Assembly (NCBI GenBank): GCA_035772785.1
Contig: JAOCPU010000048.1
Location: 232,099-296,098 of the forward strand
Direction of reading: 5' to 3'
Origin: Phlebiopsis flavidoalba
Taxonomy: Eukaryota; Basidiomycota; Agaricomycetes; Polyporales; Phanerochaetaceae
DNA length: 64,000 nt
A program made the translations under genes and the position numbers. This document shows, piece after piece, positions 7,090 through 47,236 of this stretch (position 1 is the stretch's first letter; each line of letters begins with the position of its first letter). The notes under the pieces were generated by a model, which ran no database searches, was not told the origin of the DNA, and saw nothing but the letters and a program-made list of their open reading frames with translations.

Positions 7090-8587
7090 GTGGGAACGGA
7101 CGCCTCGAAGGACACGGCGCTAGGAAATCCCCTCAGTACGACGCGGGCGGGGCGCGCCGGCGCCCCGCAGGACGGGTACTCGAGCGCGAAGTCAGGGCGT
7201 CATGTGCGCGAAGGCGGAGAGGGCGGTGGTGCTCGTATCCCTCGAAAAGTCGAAGGTGTACTCGAACTGCGAGGGGCGAGTGTGTGGGGTGGCGATCCGG
7301 GGCGCCGAGTGGGGCATGGGTGAGTAGATCACCTGATTTGTCGCTCGGTGTGACCCAGGCATGCTTGTCATCTGCGAGCTGAAGGAGTCGTAGAATTCCG
7401 AGTACTGGAGGTTCACGGGGTGTCGTCCATTGAGGAAAACATCTCGCTGGTGGTGATGGTGCATGACAGGGGAGACTGCTGCGAGGAGAAATTTGAAGCC
7501 GTCAAAACTGTGTCTGGATAGAGAGGCAGACCGTATGGGTCGCATTGTGGCGGTATCGGGGTCCGGCGATGTTGAACTGAAAGAGAATGTGGAGAAGTCC
7601 TGAAAAGGGGGGATCAGCTGAGTGGCACAATCTCACTCTCGCGTGGAAACATCTCTACGGAAAAAGGACAAAAGGATTGGTTTCAGTGAATGGCGTCGTA
7701 GTGGGTAAGGAGAGGAAGGGGTGGTACACAACGATCCGTCGGATTCGGAAGACTCGTAATCTGATTGCGACCCCGTTGTGGCGTTCGGTTCTGGCGTTGA
7801 CGTTCGACGTCTCGGGCTGGCTGCTCATCGCGCGGAGCTTGGCGGAGGCGCTGGTGGCGGCGAGGAAGGAACGGCGGGTTCGAGTGCTCAGTGTCGGGCG
7901 CAGGCGCAGACGAGGACCGTCTGAAGCTGCGTGCGGTGATGGGTGTCCTCGAACCGCGTCACGATCTCGGGCACGTGGTTGGGCGGTCGAACTCTGCGAT
8001 GGCCGCGTCGAGCTCGGCGCCCTTCTTGCCCTCGACGAGCAGCTCGGCGATCTTCTCGCACCGCTTGAGATCCTTTGGGCCGACCTCGCGCACCTTGCGT
8101 TTCTCCGCCGCCTTGCCCATGTGGTGTGCAGCGGGCGGAAGGCGTACTGGGGGAAACTTGCGCTTGTGCTCGTCGAGCGCGGCCTTGGCCTTGGAGTGCC
8201 AGATCTGGCGCTCTTCGTGCGGAAGGTTCTGCCAGGTGAGTCCGATGATCTTCGAGAGCGTGCTGTGGTTGGTCTCGGGGGGGGACCCCCCCCCCCCTCG
8301 GAGGAGACGTGCTGGTTCTTGATGAAGGAGGAGCGGAAGAGGATGAACGCGTTGGGCGGGCGAGGTATGTGGTTCTCCGGCTTCTTCTTGGCGTGGGCGG
8401 CACGGCGCGACGAGGAGGGGGCATCGGCGGTTGGGGGGGGAAGAGCATGGACTCGGCAGGAGGATCCTGGGGCGAGGGTGGGTCGAGGTAGGTGCCCAGG
8501 AGTGACGGTGGGTGCGAACGCGATGCGGGGGCTGAAGACGGCCTCCATCGAGGGAGACCTCTTGAGCTCTGGGCGCATCAGGCACAC
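7090..8587 (-). CDS. HMG-box (MATA_HMG type) transcription factor
   Basis: A sequence-specific DNA-binding protein of the basidiomycete HMG-box group. Starting at the ATG at 8587, a disordered Pro/Ser-rich N-terminus (about 65 residues) leads into the box: IPRPPNAFILFRSSFIKNQ, then TNHSTLSKIIGLTWQNLP, then HEERQIWHSKAKAALDEH and KRKFPQYAFRPLH. A conserved helical stretch follows, with VREVGPKDLKRCEKIAELLV and GAELDAAIAEFDR, then VPEIVTRFED. The C-terminal part is low-complexity and rich in Tyr/Pro/Ser/Gln (7192-7545: QYSEFYDSFSSQ and similar). The box is split by a long G/C run at 8277-8297 and by a frame break near 8130; both fall where only GTCGAG and a few bases are expected. The C-terminal limit is uncertain. 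Related proteins include mating-type and pheromone-response factors, but this one need not be at a mating locus. Confidence 0.85.
8277..8297. repeat. Back-to-back G8-A-C12 run inside the HMG box
   Basis: On the plus strand eight G, one A and twelve C follow each other. On the coding strand this is twelve G, T, eight C, where the protein (SSE-V-ETNHST) needs only GAGGTCGAGACC. Both the GG and the C of that short motif appear stretched. The tract is self-complementary and could form a hairpin. It shifts the reading frame inside the DNA-binding domain. Confidence 0.8.
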
Positions 8588-11554
8588 TCATCAGCGACGC
8601 TGGGGGCGACGAGGAGAAGGATATGCGCGTACCTTTGGCTGCGTCTCGCTTCGAAACTCGCGTGCGTTGGGCCAGGCATGGCGACACGCATTTAGGGATC
8701 TGCAGGAGGCCTGCGACGCGGGGCGAATTGATAGGGGAGGAAGGAAGGGGTGTCGCAAAAGAGGACATGGCGGGGGTGATTACATACAACTATATACGCA
8801 AGGTCAGATTGCTTGTGGGACAACATGGGTCGAACTCCGATGCGAGCATGGCCAACCAATCCTTCCATAACGAGGCGGTGTGTGGATTCTCCCCCCATCA
8901 CTCGTGGTCATAGGGCCAATCGCCCCGCATACCGTTGCGTCCCATCACTCGCGCTCCCTCGACCCACCGAGCGTATGCAGCACATCACGCCCAGAACAAG
9001 GGCATTCGCACGCAGAACAGAGTTCACAAAAATAGCCTCCGCGTTCGCCTATCTCGAGGGGTGCGTGCTATTACATACGCGCGTCCATTCGTGCACAACA
9101 ATGCGTGAATCACGTATGTAACTCGATGCACTATTCTGTATGCCGGCCAGCGGCGGCGTCGGGGGGTTCTGTGTTTACGAGAGATCCCACTGCGAGAGCA
9201 ACACCCAGAGCGATGGTTTCTGGGCAGCGAGGAGCGGGCGCGCAGGGGCGCAGGGAAGGTGGATGGCAGAGGGTGAGACGAGCGCCATGCGTATGCCGAC
9301 TCGCGGGGGTAATTCCGCACGTCGGCTTAAACCCGCGCGCCATGGACTGCATCTTCACAAGACCTGGGGGGGGGGGGGGCCCGTGCAGGATAAGCCCGCA
9401 TCTCAATCATCCGAACCATCTTCCATGGGGGCCATAGAACCTCGATGACGACCCATGCCTCCCGTCGTACGACGCCAGTCAGCCCGTGATCGGTGTCCTG
9501 CACGCACGCTGAATATTTTGTGCATTTTGCCGCACGACCGCGCCGGGCCGCAGGGTGGCGGCGGCGGTGGCCCTCCGGGCGCCTGGCTAGTAGCTATCAA
9601 CAAGGATCAGACGGAGCGCATGATGCGGAAGCCAGGCCCAGAGTCTGATCGCCGATGATCGATCCTGGGCAGGGCCGACATACGATGCTTCCGGTCCCGC
9701 TGCAACATATGCGGATTCAGCAACCTCAAAGGCGAGGAGTGATGCATGCCCCACAGCGGGCAGGAGCTCCCAGCGCACCTGGCGACAACCTTGTCCCCTC
9801 CCAAGGCAGCCCTTGTACTCGCAATCTTGGATCTGCAATCTCGCTCAGATAGCGCTATATCCGCTGAGATTGGGGGCGATGATCCAACCCACGAAAACAC
9901 GTTCACGGTGGGGCGTGACCGTGCTCATCCTCGCGCGATCTCCACAGGGGTGGGACGGCAATGAGCAGTCATCCTACCGTGTTCTCACCCCCAGCTCTTA
10001 CGAGAGACTGCTTAATTCCAGCTCGGGCGGAGCCCAACAGTAGCTCACATGGCCGAAAGGCAATTTGGGGTGGGTTTTTTGAGTTATCAGATAGGTCGCT
10101 CTGCCATACCATACCGAACGCATGCTGTTCCCATACAAGGTCACCGGGTCTGTGGCTTCTGACGCCATAGCTCCTGCACAGGGTAGATACCAGTGGCCGA
10201 TACCGCAGCTCTATGAGGCAGTCGTTGTATCTTGACGGGTGCAGAGGGTCGCTCGGGTCGTTGGAGTCGAACAGTCTCTCTGAGAAAGCATCACCACATC
10301 CAAATGACGGCCCGCCTGCGTACTGAACTGGTCGGAGTGCGGCGGAAGGGCGAGCAAGCTTTCAAACACGTCCCTCGCTGCGACCATCACAATTAAACCG
10401 CCAGCTCGACGACTTCTAGCACCGCGAAGGCGCGTTCTGCAGCTTCGACGTGCGAGCCGTCAGACGCGGATCGACCTTCATCCGCCCCACGTCGCCGGCG
10501 AACAGGCAAGGCAGCAGAAAAGCCCTGCGCGTCGCAGCGCCGGGGCTTCGTTCAGTTTTCGCCCTGCCAACAGGGCGCGTTCACCCACAGCCGGACGAAG
10601 CGTGTCCCGAGGCTGTGAGGAGAACTTTGAGCAGCCGCACAGCTTTTTTGAGGATACACGCACGCGCAGCCGCTGCCCGACGCCGGCACAGCGTGCTGGT
10701 GGCGTTCTTGGTGCGTTCATTTCCGACAGCCCCGAGGGTGGAGAGCAGTCGAGACCATGCGGGTCGCGTCGTTGGGAGGGGTTGAGAGTCGGCTCAGCTT
10801 GGTGGAGCTGCCACGTACGCCTGATAGTACTCATTAATTTTTAGAACGAGTAACCCAGCAGCGAGGGACGCACCAACCCATTTTCCTTCGCATACAGGTC
10901 GACCGCCTCCCCCCCCCCCCGTAGCCCTCCCGCCGAGCGTCGATCCGGCCCGCGCCCACCTTCCATCCCATGGGCCTAGTCTAATCCGCGCTTGGACCGC
11001 CAAGCACCCCCGGGCGGCGGGCCCCCCCCCCCCCCCCCGTCGGGACCTCACGACCACCCCCCCCCACGACATAAAAATACTAACAAATGAATAACAATTT
11101 GCCCTCGATAATACTAGACTGCAGCCCACCCAGCTATAGCTCTTGTACCCAGACGGGCGCGAGCTCATTTACCGCTGCCCGACGGCACGGCAGGGGACGC
11201 CTAGGATAAGGCACACGGCAGCCTGCGGGAATCGTTGTAGGTCGTATCGTGGACAACTGGACGACGCACCGAATTTTCCGCGGTACTCACGGCCGCAATC
11301 TTTTCGCTTCGAAGGTGGTCCGGGCGGGCCGCTGACGACTACGGCGGAACATATGTCATGATACGAAAATCTCTTGTTTCTTCATTGCAAGTACCGGACA
11401 GGCATGGTCCACAAAGCCCGTACGACCGTACACGTGTATCAGAAACCCACTACCGACATCGGCCCACCTGCGCACCGCCTACGAACACGCCGTTAGCCAG
11501 CCAAAAAAAAACCCCAAACCGCCCGCGGGGGCAAGCGACAGGCACCTTTGAACC
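8588..11554. other. No gene recognised; several long G/C runs
   Basis: Short ORFs on both strands but no conserved protein. Notable are mononucleotide runs: G14 at 9366-9379, C12 at 10909-10920, C17 at 11022-11038 and C9 at 11057-11065. The part next to 8588 should contain the promoter of the HMG-box gene. Confidence 0.4.
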
Positions 11555-22581: not shown

Positions 22582-23139
22582 GTCCGTCTATCTGCGCGCT
22601 CCTTCTTCTTCTCTTGGGCTTTGTGATACTAGATCTTCGCTGGCACTGTTATAATTAGATTACATTAGCTTACCATCTCCTGTACTATCCCTGTACCAGT
22701 GATACCTCTCAATCGTACATGTTCAGAAACCGTTCAAGTTTGCTATTTGTCTGATCAGCCCATGATGGTCCTACTCCATATTGTAAACATCTCGAGATGT
22801 GTAGAGGTAATCGCATTCAACGGGACCCCAGAATGGATCATTCTTATAAGGGGCCGGGCTCACCTGAGTGCTGGCTCGATATCTATACAGATCGCGAAGA
22901 TCGTGTACCATCGGCTACTTGTAAGTTGTTGCCCACTGAAGCAGAAAATCAAACATGTGCCAAGAGTAGTTGAAAATATGTTGAAATCCAAGAGTCTGTT
23001 AGACCTGGATTCCCAGCTCCTAGATATTTCAATTCCAATAGTTCCAAAGTGCGCAAGTGACGCTGAACCTGGGTGGGTGCCGGATGTACTAAAGAAAATG
23101 GAGCCAAAAGCAAAAAGTTATATACGTAACTATGCTTCG
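22582..23139. other. No gene recognised
   Basis: A 163-codon plus-strand frame (22699-23190) runs through this region and into the tRNA, so it is unlikely to be a gene. The run of A at 23113-23117 serves as Pol III terminator for the minus-strand tRNA. Confidence 0.45.
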
Positions 23140-23211
23140 TACACCGAACGGGAATCGAACCCGTGCCGCTTGCTTGGAAGGCAAGCATGATAACCACTTC
23201 ACCATCGGTGT
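23140..23211 (-). tRNA. tRNA-Gly (anticodon UCC), copy 1
   Basis: Read on the minus strand from 23211, the acceptor ACACCGA pairs perfectly with TCGGTGT. The D arm contains GTGAAGTGGTTATCAT. The anticodon stem CTTGC/GCAAG encloses the loop CTTCCAA, giving anticodon TCC. The T arm is ACGGG-TTCGATT-CCCGT with the standard B box GGTTCGATTCC, and the discriminator base is A. There is no intron and no encoded CCA. A TTTTT stretch about 24 bases downstream on the minus strand (plus 23113-23117) can terminate RNA polymerase III. Confidence 0.95.
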
Positions 23212-24266
23212 TTTTATTTTTCCTGTCTATCTTTGCCCTTCACTGTTTCAACCACTTCTATCTTTTTCAAAACGCACATCTACTGTATGATGATTTGGAA
23301 CACTTTGATGAAAAAGTCTGTGACTGCTTTTCTGCCGCTGTTTGAGTCCAGTCAGAAGTGACATTTATATACAGCAAACTCAATTAAGTACTACATACTC
23401 CAAACTCAACACGGCTACCAAATGTAGATGCAGGATCGCTTTACGGTTAAGAATAACCATTGTCAAGTATAGTGGTATAGATTAAGTACGCGGTGACGAG
23501 CACTGCATTGGCACTGCAGTGTAATGCGGTACCTAGTCGTTAGCTCTAAGTCACTGTTTAGTTTATTTACGAAAATGCCCAGAAATTAGCGTTAACTGTT
23601 TATAAACAGCGAAGTAAGCAGTTTCTACATCTGTATGAAACCTTCCACAGTATCAAACTGCTTGTAGGCACTTAATATCTGCAATGTACTAAGCTCAACA
23701 CGGAGCGATGAGCGAGGCGCAAACGATGGGCGTCTAATTATTATACCCAAGACGAGGAGGCGGCTGGAGGCGAGATCATCCATGCACGTCTTGCAATACC
23801 TCGCATAATTCAAGTAATAGCAATCATAGAGCAGGTAGCTTGCTATTTCCCGAGGGTCGTTTCCTGTAGAGTACTTACTCCTATACTAGTTCAGTGCATG
23901 GCGCTTAGTACCAGGCTGAGCGGGAAGTTGTCGCCCAGCCGTGCCTCCTCTCGTCATTTGCCTCGGGTATCACAATTGGGTGTCTCGAGCAGGCGTAAAT
24001 TGCGATACATGGCCAGCTGCCAATATAAATTCGCTACAGCCCTCTACGGGGGCCGATTTCTAGGACAAGAGCATATACTGTTGAGTGTACTGTCCATAAA
24101 GTGCTTACAACTGTTTACTGTTTATTTACAAAATTTCTGTAAACATGAACTCAACACTTGAGTCTTGGAGTTTTAATAAGCCCGTATTCAAAATTCAAAT
24201 GTCCATCCCAAAACTGTAAAGCTCACAAACGAAGTAGAAAAGATGGAGAATGCCCGATCACAGAAG
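23212..24266. other. AT-rich intergenic region between tRNA genes
   Basis: AT-rich, with short ORFs only. The phrase AACTCAACAC or a close variant recurs at about 23399, 23690 and 24147, and GTTTATTTAC occurs at about 23560 and 24120, so parts of this spacer may be old duplicates. No protein or RNA gene was recognised. Confidence 0.4.
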
Positions 24267-24339
24267 TACACCGAACGGGAATCGAACCCGTGCCGCTTGC
24301 TTGGAAGGCAAGCATGATAACCACTTCACCATCGGGTGT
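24267..24339 (-). tRNA. tRNA-Gly (anticodon UCC), copy 2 with one extra base
   Basis: Identical to copy 1 from the D arm through the 3' acceptor strand, with the same TCC anticodon and B box. The 5' acceptor strand reads ACACCCGA where copy 1 has ACACCGA, so one extra C bulges the acceptor stem. TTTT on the minus strand at 24237-24240 could terminate transcription. Either a sequencing indel (common in this window) or a slightly damaged gene copy. Same strand as copy 1, about 1.1 kb away. Confidence 0.85.
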
Positions 24340-37288: not shown

Positions 37289-40200
37289 TCATGGAGGTAG
37301 ACACGTCGCTAAAATCCGGACAAGGACCTGAGCCTCGGTACATAGTCGCGCCTCTCTGAAGCTAACGTCAATCCCGACTCCCTCAACGAAATTTTTTTGC
37401 ACGACTCCTCGCGCCTGCCGCCCAGGTCCCGACTCGTTCCTTTAGTATTCCACACGATCCACACGGTGGCCCGCATAGTCGCCGGCGGGGTTGATTAAAT
37501 ACTTCCTTCGGTCCTTACGTCACTCATTGATGGTTAGACTTACCTCCCGATGCCGGCGCCGTCACAGTACGCGGATTCTCTGTCTTGACAACTTCGAATT
37601 CACAGGGTCCCTCGGGTCCCTTGCCCTTGCCCTTCCCGCTTGACGAGCTGCCCACCGAGACGCGCCGCGCCTGCTCTTCGCCAGTGAGCTCCTCGACCAT
37701 TGCAGTATCTTTGATGCTCTTTTTCTCGTCGGTTACCGACGAAATGTCGGATACGCGCAGCTCTTGTTCGGCCCTGGCGCGATTGGCGTCGAAGCCGCCG
37801 AGTCGGTCCGCGAGACTGAGTGGCAGGGAGTGGATGAGTGGGCCATACGAAGCGTTTAAAACTATGTGGAACCACGCCTATGAAGTGATCAGTTAGGGGC
37901 GATCGCACGGGAGCTCATACGGGCTTACCGTGAAGACAATGAGAACGACCATGAGACCGCCCTCCGGAAGCGCGCTGGCCTTCTTATTTTCGTTACGTCT
38001 TGCGATGAAGGAAAACAGAGCTGCGAGGCAGACCTGCTGGATAAAACATTCCCTCACAAAAATTCGCTGATCTCGCAATCGGGAAGAACACAGCGCCCAC
38101 ACCTCGTCGCTGCTCTTTTCATTCGGCTGACCAATGTTTGAGCCAAGAGAACTTGGTACTTCCAGAGATTATAGAACAGGGAAGAACGAGAAGCAGAGCG
38201 AGGCCGTTGAATAATGGGGCGAGATAGACCGACGTATGGATGAGGAGATTACGACGATTGGAGAGTGTTGTTGCGAGGCCTAGTGTACGCAACCCTTGGA
38301 GACGCTGGGGAGTGGTGTATTTGATGCCTTATGTAAATCGAACGGGGGTTTGGGTGCGACCAATGGAGATAGGGCCTAGTACGTAAGTACGAATGCGATG
38401 GAGAATCGTTTGTAGAGAACAGCCTGCGGCCGTACCCGAGATGCCCTTGAAGCGTGAATGTAATGTGAGGAAGAAATTTGGAACCCCTGTGGCAGATCTG
38501 CACTGCGCAGAGAGTCTGGAGCCATGTTCCACGATATTCTTTTAACTTATACTAGCCGGGAAGGGGCTGGGCGGGCAATGATAAAAGGACGAAAGACCAG
38601 GGTGGAACGACAAAGAACGGAATGCTACGACAAGAAGTCCACATATCACGGTCCAAGATGAGAATGAGGAGCTCGAAAACTTTACAAGAACTTTTGGGAA
38701 TAGGAAGTATCGAGTTCATGAAGGACCTCAGCTCCGGATGGCAGTACTTCCGTGGGGGGGGACCTGCGGCTTAGCCCTTCCGTAATCGAATCTCAAACGG
38801 TTCATCCAAATATGATCGGGCAGGATCATCATCTGCATCAGCTCCGCGAGCAGGACAGGGGGCAGGATACAACCGGAGATGATGCATATAGCCTCCGGTC
38901 CCGATATTGTTCAGCCAATGCAACCACTGTATATGTGCAGGCGAGGGAATGGATGATGTTACGTACACCGGCCTCCGATGAAAGCGACGGGCGCGCGCGC
39001 GGGCGACGGGGATGGCCCCAGAAGAACGATCAGCCCGACACGTAATGCTCCACGAGATGAACGGTGCGGTATGCGGGCCTCGTAAGGGTTCAGGGGGAGG
39101 CCCGAGGGTTACCTCCCATATATCCAGTCCGCAGGGTCACTATGTTCAGCTCGCGGTCGGCAATGCGGTATGGAGCATGATGCGTGAGTGCCTGCGCGGC
39201 GAGATGGGCAGCGATCTCGGCGTGTTGAAGAGGATGAAGCGCGCTGTTGAGCGGCGGGTAGGTCTGCTGATGCGAGCCGGGCTTTGCTTGCAGAACGCCG
39301 TTGGGATCTTCGTCGTCAGAGGCGGCGTCCCTCGTTCTCAGCGGCTGAGGCGGACATGTCCTTTGCGAGCGTGCGACCCGGCGGTCTTTCAGTAGGGCAG
39401 AGAGCTCGACGATCTCGGCACGGGCCCATTCGATCGAGTCGACCTTCTGGCCGACGAAAGGAAGAGAGTATGGGATAAGGCCGAGGGGGAGACGATGAGT
39501 TGGACGCTTAGTTCGCGGGACGAATTGTTCGGCCAGAGAGACGTTGCGTTCGGTATCAGCGAGCGATCCGTCTGTGAGAGCCTTCTCGTCACCAGCCGAA
39601 GACGTCTTCTCAGTTGTTCTTCCTCCTCAACTCCGCCGCAGGTTTTGAGCAACGTCGTCCTCAGCACTTTCAAGTATTGAGAATGCTTCCATAAGACGCT
39701 CGTATATGAGAGGCATGTCTTTGACGGTTGCGGTGATCCAGACCTTGGCGATCCCGCCGGGGAGAGGTTCATACAGTTTAACGAGAGCTCGCCCTCGGTG
39801 AGATATCGCTGTGGCACTCCGCGTATGAGCACCGTACTGGCTTGAGCAGACCTGGAATATTCGGGGGAGATGAGCCAACGCTGCCGCTCGTTGATGAAGT
39901 TCTGCATCTCCATTTTGACGATATACCACACCCAGAAGGTGAACAGCCATGCGAGGATCAGATGCGGCTCCATATCGACCCTGCTTACTGGGCGCGATGT
40001 TGCCGAAGCTGAGTCGATCGAGCCCTGTTCTTCCCTCGACGAAGGTTTGGACGGAGTTGACGGGGAGGAGGGACGATCCACGATATGATCCAAATGGGGA
40101 GGAAGAGCCGCGTCATCATGCGTTAGAAAGTGTACATAGAGGTATGCATCGAGGCAATTCACTTCCTTGATTTTCGTGTAATCTGCGCGGAAGACTGAGA

Positions 40201-40569
40201 TGGGCCATAGCAGGATACCCCCGCGGCATGGGCTGTGCTCGTTTCCTGGCGAGACGTGAGATGGAGATTGCTATGCTGCATAGTAGACTTACTCTTCTGG
40301 AGGAACATAGGTCCGCGGCTGGTAGACAGCAGGGACAGTAATGGTCGCACAATCGTGAAGATACCGATTTCGATCCAGAAGACTGCTACGTTGAACACCA
40401 ACGCAGCTGTAAACGTACTTGTCGAAGCACTCGTTGCGTTGGTGATGGTCGAGCCACTCGAAGCAGCTGTGCCCGTCGCGGTACTGGCACCGGCAGTTAC
40501 GGTACATAAAGCATTCGTGATGCTTGATGTAGGCCTATGTGTCGTGCAGACATTAGTTGCAAGTGGCAT
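37289..40569 (-). CDS. CSC1/OSCA/TMEM63-type channel, copy B
   Basis: A tandem paralogue of copy A and better preserved at the N-terminus. From ATG 40569 a Thr/Ala/Ser-rich extracellular tail leads to STSTFTAALVFNVAVFWIEI (first helix), then PAVYQPRTYVPPEE. NCLDAYLYVHFL and HLILAWLFTFWVWYIVKMEM form the next helix pair, followed by the cytosolic RRM-like loop with STVLIRGVPQRYLTEGEL and VWITATVKDMPLIYERLMEA. Further pieces are GSKFFLTYITLQGISG, TPVRFTYIR-like, QVCLAALFSFIARRNE, SALPEGGLMVVLIVFT and the C-tail VKTENPRTVTAPAS before a GTAAGT donor at about 37540. A last exon with GVGIDVSF ends near 37289. Function is inferred from family: calcium-permeable, osmotically gated, in plasma membrane or endomembranes. 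Confidence 0.82.
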
Positions 40570-42196
40570 GTAGAGAGGAAGACGACATACATCTTGGGTG
40601 TGAACGACACAGGAGGAGGAGGAACAAAAGACTGAGCGAGCAGAGAGTGCATTCGAAGAGAGTTCGTGTTCCGAAGTTGTAAGTTTTCGAGACCTGGAAA
40701 AGTGGCCAAGTATGCACTAGGGCGTGTGGTCTGGCAAGGTTGTCATCAGCATCCTAGGAAAGGGTCCTATTCAGTCCGAGCGCGAAGCTTACCACGCCGT
40801 CAAGGAGGATGCACACAGATCGGGCTGCTTGGCTAAGCTTTCGACGCGAGGTTTACGTCCTGCTCAAACCTCTCGCGTTCCTGCTAGTGTTCATGCTGTG
40901 TACATAAATCGCACTACAAGCATTCGCGCCACACAATATTCGGCCACATCTTCGTGCCATCGTTCATGGACGAGCCGTGGTCAGCTGTCGACTTCGGATG
41001 AATGGAAGACGATGGTTTCATGTGAAAATAGCGCTGTCATGGTCCCGCAACTCCGCCTGCTGGTTCCCTGGCGGTCGCAGAAGCACTTCGCCATTGCAGC
41101 TATATTTCAATGTGCTCTCCAGACCACAGGGACTTGGCTTGTAGATCTTCTGTAGTATCATAGGATTAGTTCACGAGTGTCGACGAAAGCTTATCTTTGA
41201 CAATGAAACAAAATCAGAGGAACATTATGTCGCTAAAAAAAAAAGCCGTCGCCTCGGAATTGGCTTCAATTCTTGGTGGTTGATCGACAGGCGCATTAAA
41301 CTCTGTTGTAGACTGTGGTAATTCGCTCAGATTTGTAACTATTGATGTATGGACAGTGATGGATGACAAAAACGTACAGTAGTGCTTTCCCATTGTGTGC
41401 ATTACATGTGGGAAATGATTTTTCTTGCAGCTCTTGTGGGACGGTAGAGCCTGACGTAGTTTGGGATCCTCCACGAAGAGGCCTGTTTCGTCGCAGAGTT
41501 TTCAACTCTAGTAGAGCCGCCGAAGGTTCATGTGACCTAGTTCAAGGCTTTGAATTCGTTGTCAGTATGATTCGTGGTCGAGGCAACCCAGATCCCTAGA
41601 AAATAAGGGAGCAGCCGCCCTGCTGTTTTTGATACTGACACGACCCAGAACAGGAGGGCGACACCCATCTTTTTGAGTCGTCTTCTTTGAGAGTAGTTCT
41701 GTAACATTGAAAAAATTTCAGCCTCACACCTCTGAGCGCGTTTTATGTGGAAAAGGCTGTGAAGCCAGTATTCCCAACAGGTTTGATAGTTTATAAGCTG
41801 CGAAGCGGTCGAAGATGGTAGGTCAAGCGTGTGCAATCCCACGCGCAACTGAACAATGACAGGGCCTAAGAGTCGAGACTTCAAGACGAAATCGCCCAAA
41901 GCTGTCATCGGCGGCCGGAATATTCCGTATGTCGATCAAATAATCGCATCACTTAGGGCAGGACGCCCGAGTTGCGTATTTTGCTCTTTCAAGTTGCGCC
42001 TCTCGGACAAACGAATGAAGTACACAACACTGCAATCGATAAAATTCATATAGTACATGGTATTTTTTTTTGTGTTTAATGGTCCTTTTTATGAAAGACG
42101 CTAGTCCTATCGCAGGTTCCAAGTCGCGCGCCCGTGTGTCCGAGGGCTGATAACACAAACATTCAGGATACTGGACACAGATACCTTTGTAGGTGT
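40570..42196. other. Unresolved region
   Basis: Upstream of channel copy B and downstream of the mini-exon gene. A plus-strand frame at 40724-41155 (WSGKVVISILGKGPIQ and on, ending QTTGTWLVDLL) looks coding, and its 41046-41100 part resembles 36191-36245. A minus-strand frame at 41537-41908 has a hydrophobic patch. Neither is recognised. Confidence 0.3.
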
Positions 42197-44274
42197 TCAG
42201 TCGAGCTCTTCCAGGCTGAGACGATCGCGAGAGCGTTCGCGACTGTCTCCGTGGCGGCGGCCTATATCTTATGGTAAGTATAAGCCCTAAGTGTATCATA
42301 AAAGACTCACGAGTCAAATCACCAGATGCACGGCGGTCGCGAGAGCGTTCACGACTATCTCCGTGTCGACGGCCTATGAACTGTCAGATCAGGTAAAAAT
42401 ATCCAGAGTGGCGACTCACGAGTGAGCTCCTTGAAACGTCACGGCGGTCCTGGATCGCTCACGACTGTCGCCGTGGCGGCGACGGGTGAGCTCAGCCACC
42501 TCCCGGCGGCCTTGAGAACGTTCGCGGCTGTCAACCATGTCGGCGACCTTTAAAATCAACGTTAAACCGAAAGCTCCTCTAAGGCCTGTTGTGAGGACTC
42601 ACGGCCCAATTCGGGGACATCCCTGCGGTCACGAGAGCGTTCTCGGCTGTCTCCGTGCCGGCGACTCTGAACAAACTTGTTCAGACGTGGCTGGACACAC
42701 ATGGATTCAAAATGGTTCATACGCAGAGTCAGGTCAACAATTTCCTCACGGCGGCCACGGGCCCCCAACGTTCGCGACTGTCACCCCCCGTGCCTGCGAC
42801 CTACAAAACGCTATGGTTAATGGCTTAACCTCTGTCATCCAATTACAGAAGGAACCCACGACGTGAGCTCGCGCTGTCTTCTCGGCGATCGCTGGAGGAA
42901 CGCTCTCAGACTGTCGCCGTGCCTGCGGTTTGCTCTGGAGACTGGTTAGATCGTCACCGAACTCTAAACGGCGTAACTGCCTACTTGTCAATCCTTCGGT
43001 CTCCCGACGATCCTGGAGCGCTCGCGGCTGTCACCGTGCCTGACGACCTACGAATGGTTCAACATATCGTGAAATACTCTTCTCTTTGGCCAAACTTACG
43101 AGCAAGCTCTACGGCGTCACGGCGATCATGGGATCTTTCGGCGGCTGTCACTCGTGCCTGCGGGCTACCACACGATGAGTACGGAAGATTCGCGATCAAC
43201 TATGCCTCGTGGTAGACTTACGAGCAAGTCCTTCCTCGCGCCTGTCGCGACGGAGCGCTCGCGACTGTCGCCGTGCTTGCGACCTGCAATCCCCTTGTTT
43301 AATACGGGTTTTGTTGCCGTCTCAACGTTTTCGAGTTATTTTTACGGGTCAAGTCCACACATCATCGCGACGACCGCGGGATCTTTCACGACTGTCTCCG
43401 TGCCTGCGACCTAGTCCAGTCACCTTAGGAAGCCGAGCACGATTTCACAAAGGGTCCCTAGTCCCGTATATTTGCTTACAGGAGTGAGACCAGTCGACAT
43501 CTCCTGCCAAATAACAACCGGTCCCTGGAGTGGACTATCCTATACTATCGCCGTGCCTGCGACCTGTGCTCACCAAGAGCGTTGGTTCATGGATTCCCCT
43601 TCAACTTCAACGACACTTACGAGCGAGCTCTACCGTCTCGCGGCGGTCTCGAGATCGTTCACGACTGTCTCCGTGTCTGCGACCTGATAGACATTACCAT
43701 CGAGATCAAAGTATACAAAAACTTCCCCACTCACGAGTCAGGTCCGCCTCGTTGCGGCGATCGTGCGATCGCCTCCCGGGCTATCGCCATGCTTGCGACC
43801 TAAATGAAAGGTAAGTAGGCTTGCATGAATCCGGAGTGGAAAACCTTACGAGTCAGCTCTGCAGCCTCCTCCCCCGGCGACCTCTGGAGCGTTCGCGGCT
43901 ATCGCCGTGGTGGCGACCTTGAGGATTTATGGTCATACAGAGTCAGGATTTACTCCAGGAGGAATATGTACGAGCAAGCTCGTCGGTATCATCCCTTCGA
44001 TCGCGCGAACGTTCTCGATAGCTCTCCGTGCCTGCGGCCTAGCAATCGCTGAACATCAGGAATCTTCCCAGACGCGAGTCAATATCACTCACGAGTAAGG
44101 TCCTCGACATCGGCGACGGCCTTGAGACCGCTCTCGGCTATCGCCGTGCCTGCGCTCTGCCAGTCATTTGTGAGTACCAGTGTTAGAGCTCATTGAGGAG
44201 CCCAACGGACTAGTGATTTCTTCAACTTCTCGGCGGCCTCTGGACCTCTCACGGGCTGTCCCCGTGCCTACGAG
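42197..44274 (-). repeat. Exon-intron tandem array, about 18 units of 110-125 bp
   Basis: Each period contains the conserved exon and a diverged intron. Approximate exon positions are 44211-44274, 44095-44158, 43972-44039, 43850-43918, 43735-43800, 43621-43683, 43480-43564 (degenerate), 43347-43411, 43218-43284, 43098-43167, 42990-43049, 42861-42929, 42726-42800, 42603-42666, 42420-42547 (double), 42311-42373 and 42197-42261. Exons keep the core GGCACGGNGACAG while introns share little beyond their splice sites, so selection acts on the exons. Confidence 0.88.
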
Positions 44275-44515
44275 CTGCCCGAGCCGCACAATGAGTGCAA
44301 CTCTTGTGATCATGTATTGCAGAGTGCTCACCGGTCAAATCAGCTGCAGCCAGTTCAGTCCTTGCGGCAAGAGCATCGACTGCTGCACGCAAATACGGAT
44401 GGTCAGTGGTAGGTGTGCACCCCCTGAAGGTATCTTACCATCGCCGGGACTGCGGAACTGCTCTGGCGCAGACGGCAGAAAGGAGTACAAAGAAGTAGAG
44501 CACAGAAGAACGCAT
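42197..44515 (-). CDS. Secreted repeat protein encoded by tandem mini-exons
   Basis: Not a family I recognise. From ATG 44515 exon 1 encodes a good signal peptide, MRSSVLYFFVLLSAVCARA, ending at a GTAAGA donor (44438). Exon 2 (44332-44382, 51 nt) encodes VDALAARTELAAADLTG. Then come about 18 copies of a 63-nt exon, each separated by a 45-65-nt intron with GTGAGT/GTAAGT donor and TAG/CAG acceptor. All these introns are phase 1, so every repeat exon is a symmetric 21-codon block: RRRHGDSRERSRDRR, four variable residues, then (D/E)LT or ELA. Units at 42311-42373, 43621-43683 and the terminal 42197-42261 are free of indels; the last ends LEELD and TGA. Two units (42420-42547) are fused in frame without an intron. 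Most other units need one base added or removed. Predicted length is about 420 residues, very basic, with dibasic RR in each unit. Exon 1 is one base out of phase with exon 2. Confidence 0.85.
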
Positions 44516-47236
44516 GATGATATGTTGCTGCTTGGAGGTGAGTTTGCTAGAAGTTCGAGGACTTGAGGGGAGATGCGCTGCGTGAGTGCTCTTATATACC
44601 CTTGCTCGAATCTCTGATATGGGCCGGACGTACCTGGCCCTTTCGTCGCATATAGGATGTGCACAACCACATCTCTGTCTACCTTTTTCTCAGGCCCAAG
44701 GGCATTAATTCGTACGGAAGCTAGGTGGAACGACAAGCGGAGCGTTGAGACTCGCAATAATATCCGTACACTCGTGGGATATCGATGACTCTGCTCTACG
44801 CATAGTGAGTGCTGTTGTTCATGATCTTATTGCGCCATCAACTGGGTCGTGTGAGGCGTTTGAGCTGACTATTGCTGCGCTAGGCTTGGCTTGTTCAACT
44901 CGGCCTCGAACAGGATGGTAAAAATGGTAGTATTTGGGAGTAGCTTCTCCACAATCGATACTCTATTTGACTGACGGCTTTGCACCCGAAACAGACGGTA
45001 GAACGAATCCTGAGAGAAAAAATGCTAAAGACGGATCGAACACCCATGGGACCTGCGCCACAAGGAAACGACGGAAGCATTCTGCCCGTTGTACATCATC
45101 TTTGGCATGCTTCAGGGAACAACGAGTGAGAATGTGGAGACAGGCCGCAGCAAGTGGGTGAAAATATGCAGTCCAAATCTGACCGAAGCTAGCTGGCGTG
45201 AGTCCAACGCTCATAGCCTCCGCCGCGGGAATTTCTGGGGCCCATGAGGGAGAAAACTCCCTACGGTAACTTTTTCCGCTGGCAGGAGCTTCAAGTATAA
45301 TTGAAGCGCAGCCAGAGGAGCTAAGGCGTATGGCTACTATAATTCCTTTGGCATCCTGTGGGGGTACGAGGCAGTACAGCCTAGGGGCCGGATGCGCCTG
45401 GGTCATGAGATTACGAAATGCTTTTCGCTTGAACCTGATTTCTTTGTGTATGCGCACGCAGTGCGTTCGACAAACTCGTAGGCGTAGGTGGGTCCCTGTC
45501 TCATGACACCCAAGCCACTGTTACATAGTTTGCCGGCGGGAGCCCACTCAAACAGAGGAACAAGGTGGGGTGTGGCTCCTACCTCGAGCCCTTGCACTGG
45601 CTATCAACAACATTCTTTGATTATAGTACCAAGAAGTCGATGTGAGACGATCCGCACAGAAGTCGGTTACTTACTCGAAATATGCTTTTGCTCTCACTCG
45701 GGGCGCCTCTATCATACGCACAGTATTCTCACTCCGAGGAGTCGTTGGTGGCCCGCAGCTTCGGATGTAACCAAACGACTATTACCGGTACTGATTTCCC
45801 ATGAGGTGATCGCGCGGCAAATATGTTCGGTTGTCACATTGTTGGATGAATAGACTTGGGTCAGGTACAATCGGGGGATGCGTCTACCTTGTCAAATCAA
45901 TAGCTAAGTTTCGTGATATGGGGGTATATATCGATAGAAGCCTCAAATTACCCCAAAGTCGACCGCATATGCAGTGCCAGTGCTTGTTTCAGAATACTTT
46001 GGCTTGAACAATCTCACAAAATGCATATTCTAAGGCGGATACAGCGCTCAGAGTCCACACTCGGTTTGTCTGCGCAGGGCTGTTTTGAGGGGTGTTGACC
46101 GCATGATATGCCAAACTGCGAAGTCGCGTGTCAGGGTTTTTGTCGTCACGTATCAAGAGTTGAACGTGTTTAGAACGTGCTGTTCGGTTAGAGCTCAGGA
46201 AGAATCATGCAGTCATTAGACGTCTGCATAGTATTAGCCCGAACACTGAACTCACAAACTTGCGGTATAATCGATAGCGTCTAGTAAGGTAGCCCGTCCG
46301 ATAACGAAGAATTGGACAGGCTCCGCGAGGCGCACGTTGCAGAGACGTGGTTGATCCACGAAGGCGATGTTCGCTTGAATGAGCTCCTGCAGACAGCCGA
46401 AGATGTAAACAGAGTTTACGGAGAGACAATCCCATATGCCCCACTCATACTTAGTCGAATTATTGAACCCCTTCGACCACACAATTCACAACATCGGCGC
46501 CAGGGTTTGTGGGCAAAAATTACGTGAGAGTGAGACAGGTAGAGCTTGCAAGAAATCGTGTGATGCGTCCGACCCCTGAGCCGTTCGATGTACACGAGTT
46601 CCTAAACACGCGTGATAACGCAACGCCTGGTGGTAGTTGATGATGCTCGTCTTATACAGTCACGGTAAGGGTTCCGATCTTGATGTATAGGGTTTGACAC
46701 GTGTCAAGGCCTGTCAGGGGTCCTATGCGCGTTCGCGCAGAATCCCGATCGCCAAGTTTATCGGGTCCGCCACATCTATGTCTCGGCGAACACGACAACA
46801 ATCGTTGCTGCTACGGCTATTGACGAGAATGTCCACAGCGGATCTGCATCTATGGATGAGCTGCTAGGGTTTGATGTACGCGCTGCCTGGTGTGCTCTCG
46901 TGAAATACCGCTCAAGCCTGACTACGTTCCAAAGCATCGATGGTATTTACTGTGCTGCAGCATTTCGAATTTCAGTGCAGCTGACACTGTGTCGTAGCCT
47001 GCTGCATATCTGCAATGCGGATAAGACATAGGTAGTCTATCCTCTCGTAGCATTGTGCGACATGTTCTATTCTAGTAGGTCGTTGCGCGTGCGTGGTCCC
47101 GAACACGGGCCTGCCTACCGGATCGTCTTTCATATCGGTGGAATCTATGTACGCCCATCTGACGCTGTGTTACGCAACCCTTTGGCTCCTCGGCTGGCTT
47201 GTATCGAGTGACTGATGTATCCCGGACGCTTACTCA
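44516..47236. other. Unresolved region
   Basis: Fragments that look like protein are present but unrecognised: plus strand 46305-46460 (REAHVAETWLIHEGDVRLNE, then ETIPYAPLILSRI) and plus strand 46755-47025 (HIYVSANTTTIVAATAIDEN, then DELLGFDVRAAWCALVKY). The longest minus-strand frame is 44963-45457. Just left of 44516 on the minus strand should be the promoter of the mini-exon gene. Confidence 0.3.

Follow-up and report, generated by a model that had tools for sequence, protein, structure and literature searches.

A minus-strand gene between positions 44515 and 42197 of the window (the whole stretch of DNA analysed, 64,000 nucleotides) is built from a signal-peptide-like exon 1, a short exon 2 and 18 units of about 63 nt (Table 1). 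The unit is conserved as protein: strongly in its core, less at residues 12 and 13, and weakly in its spacer. We give roughly even chances to the following interpretation: this is one gene of a Polyporales-type mushroom, its product is a secreted precursor of the kind known as KEX2-processed repeat proteins (KEPs), and most of the frame breaks that it displays are assembly errors. The KEP kind of protein is already known, the one-unit-per-exon gene is a variant of it, and the unit itself is unnamed as far as our searches reach. An earlier, sequence-only reading of this DNA left out both the layout of KEX2-processed repeat proteins and the broken state of the units as assembled.

Layout of the repeat array

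The sequence-only reading had counted about 18 units, and we find 18 of them at ~42.2-44.28 kb on the minus strand, with template and profile scores above those of shuffles. With the first template, of 41 nt, unit scores range from 9 to 31, compared with a maximum of 8 in five shuffles and of 12 at the best site in the window beyond the array; this last value is exceeded by 16 of the 18 units, the exceptions being those at 43561 and 42798, with scores of 9 and 11. A 63-column profile, which was trained on the same units, gives them scores of 33-85 versus at most 17.6 in 60 shuffled stretches.

Table 1 Features of the gene, listed in the direction of transcription.
Feature	Position in window	Strand	Basis
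TATA-like box, ~77 nt upstream of the ATG	44592..44598	-	read from sequence
Exon 1: ATG, signal-peptide-like MRSSVLYFFVLLSAVCARA, followed by donor GTAAGA	44439..44515	-	signal peptide by eye
Exon 2: VDALAARTELAAADLT, phase 1 end, tail like the unit tail	44332..44382	-	read from sequence
Unit 1, one indel, ends approximate	44211..44275	-	profile alignment
Unit 2, one indel, start approximate	44093..44155	-	profile alignment
Unit 3, indels	43972..44038	-	profile alignment
Unit 4, one indel	43850..43917	-	profile alignment
Unit 5, indels	43735..43799	-	profile alignment
Unit 6, indel-free, RRRHGDSRERSRDRRETVELA, first R spans proposed splice	43621..43683	-	profile alignment
Unit 7, most diverged, lowest profile score (33), several indels	43496..43563	-	profile alignment
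Unit 8, indels in spacer, none in core	43346..43410	-	profile alignment
Unit 9, indels	43222..43283	-	profile alignment
Unit 10, indels, start approximate	43100..43165	-	profile alignment
Unit 11, two opposite indels	42985..43047	-	profile alignment
Unit 12, several indels, without acceptor at the predicted place	42860..42929	-	profile alignment
Unit 13, three longer insertions, two of them G runs	42726..42800	-	profile alignment
Unit 14, indel-free, RRRHGDSRERSRDRRDVPELG, first R spans proposed splice	42603..42665	-	profile alignment
Unit 15, one indel, fused without intron to unit 16	42484..42547	-	sequence and profile alignment
Unit 16, second half of the intronless fusion, indels	42420..42483	-	sequence and profile alignment
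Unit 17, indel-free, RRRHGDSRERSRDRRASGDLT, first R spans proposed splice	42311..42373	-	profile alignment
Unit 18 (last), open, ends EELD then TGA, position 15 is L	42197..42261	-	read from sequence

The consensus unit is 63 nt long and in phase 1 at both ends: the consensus exon ends on one base of an arginine codon, a C in 15 of the 18 units, and the next exon supplies the other two bases, which keeps phase 1 throughout. Units are spaced 110-153 nt apart, and 16 of the 17 junctions between them are intron-like. Fifteen of the 16 proposed inter-unit introns are 46-62 nt long and one is 85 nt; GT is present at the predicted donor of 14 of them, and AG at the predicted acceptor of 12, or of 15 if a shift of one base is allowed. 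The 63-nt exon with phase 1 at both ends and flanking splice signals, as originally read, thus holds for the consensus and for most, not all, of the junctions. The remaining pair of units (42547-42420, spacing 64 nt) had been noted as an intronless fusion; its sequence indeed runs continuously through the expected junction, and this lends independent support to the junction proposed elsewhere. The stop codon claimed for the last unit is likewise present, as TGA at 42199-42197.

Introns have diverged and exons have been conserved, as had been claimed: alignment of introns with each other scores -0.09, against -0.11 for one shuffle of each, and that of exons 0.30. Neighbouring units resemble each other no more closely than distant ones do (0.31 vs 0.30), so no recent burst of duplication is visible. 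Tandem Repeats Finder gave no report at the array locus, probably because the introns are unlike one another.

At the 5′ end, visual reading of exon 1 suggests a basic n-region, a hydrophobic VLYFFVLLSAV and a cleavage-like site, ARA-V. The end of exon 2 shares a DLT pattern with some of the units. As assembled, the junction of exon 1 with exon 2 is one base out of phase, which counts against the KEP interpretation. The secreted, arginine-rich protein of about 420 residues that had been predicted fits the anatomy of the locus, with a putative signal peptide judged by eye, but no single open protein of this kind is encoded by the sequence as assembled.

Conservation of the unit as protein

Across core codons 2-15, single-base differences from the commonest codon are synonymous in 87 cases and nonsynonymous in 7, where chance would give a synonymous share of 25%. 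This relation is reversed when those columns are read in either of the other sense frames (7:88 and 18:78 synonymous to nonsynonymous), and the two results together indicate that the units have been selected as protein, in agreement with the earlier claim. The six tail codons that form the spacer give 18:21. These counts come from 250 core codons, 130 of which are the commonest codon; the 26 that differ from it at two or more bases (13 encoding the same residue, 13 another) were set aside, two gapped codons were dropped, and inserted bases were left aside in all selection counts. The four units with an open frame, taken alone, give 12:1. Identity of the core to the consensus is 0.93, 0.93 and 0.57 at the first, second and third codon positions; the earlier description of the units as near-identical is not confirmed.

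If the repeats were conserved non-coding or antisense DNA instead of coding exons, their frame breaks would be harmless, and one of the antisense frames does yield an apparent excess of synonymous differences (74:22). That frame shares the variable third positions, which accounts for its ratio; the other two antisense frames give 6:89 and 3:91, and the signal of the sense frame is much stronger. The splice sites, phase, stop codon and signal-peptide-like start also fit the minus strand. A non-coding or antisense repeat was accordingly rejected on the frame test, and we leave it next to no probability.

The residue pattern of the unit is uneven. H4, G5, D6 and E9 are present in all 18 units, as are R2 and R14. 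R3 is found in 15 units (two others have K and one H), such that R2 is followed by R or K at position 3 in 17 of 18, and R15 is found in 16, as is the R14-R15 pair. R1 occurs in 16 of 17 units, its first base being assumed from the end of the preceding exon (C in most). Once inserted bases are disregarded, each of core residues 2-11 and 14-15 is kept in 15 or more of the units counted. Positions 12 and 13 are less constant, R at the former and D at the latter each occurring in just 12 of 18 units; as both would belong to the peptide proposed below, this counts against the KEP interpretation. The spacer consists of six variable, mostly acidic residues.

Broken frames and the state of the assembly

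The statement that every repeat unit is a complete symmetric exon does not survive alignment: the profile alignment leaves 3 of 18 units free of indels (4 of 18 if the open last unit is counted, at whose stop end the alignment sets one insertion/deletion pair), and in 10 of 18 the net length does not preserve the frame. Relative to the consensus, 52 bases are inserted and 9 are missing across the 18 units; both counts derive from a profile alignment of our own, and a few of the indels are artefacts at unit boundaries.

Similar changes are found in genes elsewhere in this assembly. Actin has about 376 residues. On another contig (C102:40600-42600), the actin gene has gained bases at 7 of 7 places over ~1128 coding nt, once by three bases; the places were chosen by eye against the residues expected of actin, and one may hold two separate gains. 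In the HMG gene of the window (7600-8850, minus strand), two gains and one loss disrupt the frame within 345 nt, and a long G/C run makes up one of the gains; these were counted against a Daedaleopsis relative, another species, and the largest length difference could partly be real. Nine of the ten indel events in these two control genes are gains. The assembly is insertion-rich, and protein annotation built on it needs read-level checking, as the gains in actin show.

Baseline noise of this kind is insufficient to explain the array. Over the 756 nt of its core we count 22 indel events (29 per kb); the two control genes together have 10 over ~1473 nt (6.8 per kb), so that the array exceeds them about fourfold (P ~3e-8, Poisson, with the control rate taken as known). 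This density counts against assembly noise alone, and the excess may reflect either mis-polishing of similar units or real decay. We considered in this light that selection maintained the gene until recently and that it is now decaying in this strain, a scenario for which the indel excess and the ten frame-breaking units speak. Substitutions tell against it: the 13 units with a core indel show 63 synonymous to 5 nonsynonymous differences, those without (five units) 24:2, and the ratio is 42:6 in the first nine units and 36:0 in the last nine. So little substitutional decay in indel-bearing units favours a cause that is technical or very recent, and actin and HMG display the same kind of change. 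We prefer assembly error as the explanation of the frame breaks, with recent decay as the alternative, and regard a recently decayed copy as rather unlikely.

Frame changes were also seen in other genes of the window. About 2-3 kb from the array, a gene with matches to RSN1_TM and PHM7_cyt below the curated cut-offs (38000-40800, minus strand) contains some, to which unrecognized introns could add. A gene matching PF00562 seems, by eye, to have about three; it has no close reference and stands outside the indel rate. Long C runs at 10897-11035 may, like the G runs of the array, be artefacts of assembly.

Proposed processing and comparison with known systems

Under the KEP interpretation, the signal-peptide-like start would take the protein into the secretory pathway, where, in each unit, KEX2 would cut behind the dibasic sites (residues 1-3 and 14-15). 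Cleavage would free from every unit a conserved peptide, made of HGDSRERS and two residues that vary more (most commonly RD), together with a short linker, the variable and mostly acidic spacer; one precursor would supply as many as 18 copies of HGDSRERSRD or of near variants. The gene may have grown by duplication of an exon together with its intron, with units gained or lost without breaking the frame. The described layout of KEPs comprises a signal peptide, repeats, and KEX2 sites between the repeats, according to the parts of the sources drawn on here (PMC6339444, PMC7329392, PMC9769878). Several near-identical internal repeats are present here, as 18 units once inserted bases are set aside, and dibasic sites of KEX2 type lie between them. 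The match is a weak test, since a unit with 8 arginines in 21 residues will contain dibasic sites whatever its function.

The same composition would suit a protein that is never cut: a secreted or delivered, putatively disordered, mixed-charge repeat protein that makes many weak contacts or binds polyanions or the cell wall, and in which repeat number would set binding strength. R, S, D and E abound in the consensus unit, which includes a conserved RS-like stretch. SP7-like effectors, as described in the part of PMC11333574 used here, have a signal peptide and hydrophilic, imperfect repeats with an intron ahead of the first one, and how they bind SR45 depends on the number of repeats. That account reports SP7-like proteins from Glomeromycotina only (PMC11333574), whereas the host here is Polyporales-like, and conservation drops sharply from core to spacer, as suits a linker between cut sites. 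We consider an uncut protein, the main rival interpretation, fairly unlikely.

The host was placed with the HMG gene, whose translation retrieved 513 proteins at E <=0.001 among 687 candidates. Its best named matches among the 120 listed are from Daedaleopsis, Trametes, Lentinus, Dichomitus and Ganoderma, genera which we take to be Polyporales, with Jaapia (92%) and Agaricus (89%) lower; the best are mostly at 92-100% over 50-68% of the 56 residues. By these sequence matches the host is Polyporales-like, and the protein collection evidently covers its relatives. Searched against that collection at two query lengths, the unit shared words with one candidate each time and had no match at E up to 10. 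The search requires exact five-residue words and predicted proteins, and mini-exon genes are perhaps poorly predicted, so this negative is weak evidence of absence. Two units against Pfam and one unit against the PDB, each at E up to 10, gave no match, which accords with the earlier statement that no named family has this unit.

No second locus was found in the same genome with a degenerate DNA pattern or a 22-residue unit search: the pattern, at up to 2 mismatches, hit 14 sites, 9 in the array and 5 elsewhere, and a backward control pattern also gave 5, while all 4 places returned by the unit search lie within the array. A k-mer scan of the window for a second array produced one other peak above the null, in the 1500 nt that start at ~10980, which was discarded when a repeat finder returned C runs and one two-copy family there. 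When 20 more reading frames from the window were scanned with Pfam, two matches resulted, the HMG box and the sub-cut-off RSN1_TM. The window also carries two tRNA-Gly (TCC) genes on the minus strand, ~1.1 kb apart (23139-23211 and 24266-24339; Rfam and ARAGORN, Gly by ARAGORN).

Among the literature matches listed, no paper describes this unit or a KEP with one unit per exon, although absence is not thereby proven. Neither PMC6339444 nor PMC7329392 uses the word exon or intron in its main text, and PMC9769878 uses neither exon nor introns. The array is a clear case of an exon-per-repeat precursor of secreted type in a mushroom fungus, in which protein-level selection can be measured within one gene. 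Genes made of 60-nt exons are probably easily missed by gene prediction, and the fungal KEP count may consequently be too low; Basidiomycota average 5.30 KEPs per strain in the survey data cited (PMC7329392). Exon skipping, or gain or loss of a single exon, is predicted from the symmetric consensus exons to keep the frame, in line with the earlier reading. The gene could, in a version that we hold to be very doubtful, be a splicing-controlled peptide dispenser: each released peptide would have its own symmetric exon, and dose and mixture would be tuned by exon inclusion and by single-exon gain and loss. No such dispenser was found for fungi among the literature matches listed, and whether splicing sets the number of peptides per precursor has become a testable question.

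SP7-like effectors have a secretion signal, to which the signal-peptide-like start read here by eye would correspond, and they resemble the gene in the imperfect hydrophilic repeats that follow and in the intron preceding the first of these. They differ in having 6-11 repeats and in coming, as far as the cited part of the source reports, from Glomeromycotina only (PMC11333574), another host group; the HMG gene of our window finds its best named matches in Polyporales, and the comparison is by description, the signature being given only as a figure. With that family reported from Glomeromycotina only, membership of it is not supported. SP7-like effectors are described as acting on plant splicing factors by many weak contacts, and in the same source the common origin of aphid bicycle effectors is traced by exon-intron structure (PMC11333574). 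Micro-exon genes (MEGs) of schistosomes are outlined in PMC5825161 as encoding secreted products from short symmetric exons, with alternative splicing proposed. Most MEG coding sequence lies in symmetric exons of 6-36 bp; the consensus exons here are symmetric too, but are ~63-nt copies of one unit, and since schistosomes are flatworm parasites the likeness is convergent at most. For the bicycle effectors, we know of no sequence or lineage link to the array.

The closest comparison remains that with KEPs, peptides derived from which have been detected in Coprinopsis cinerea, as the consulted part of PMC9769878 relates. Like the KEPs of Agaricomycetes and other fungi, the gene combines a signal-peptide-like start, many repeats, a conserved core between dibasic sites and a variable spacer. 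It differs from them in its 18 copies, in an arginine-rich consensus core without Tyr, Trp or Cys, for which no sequence relative was found, and in its arrangement of nearly one unit per exon.
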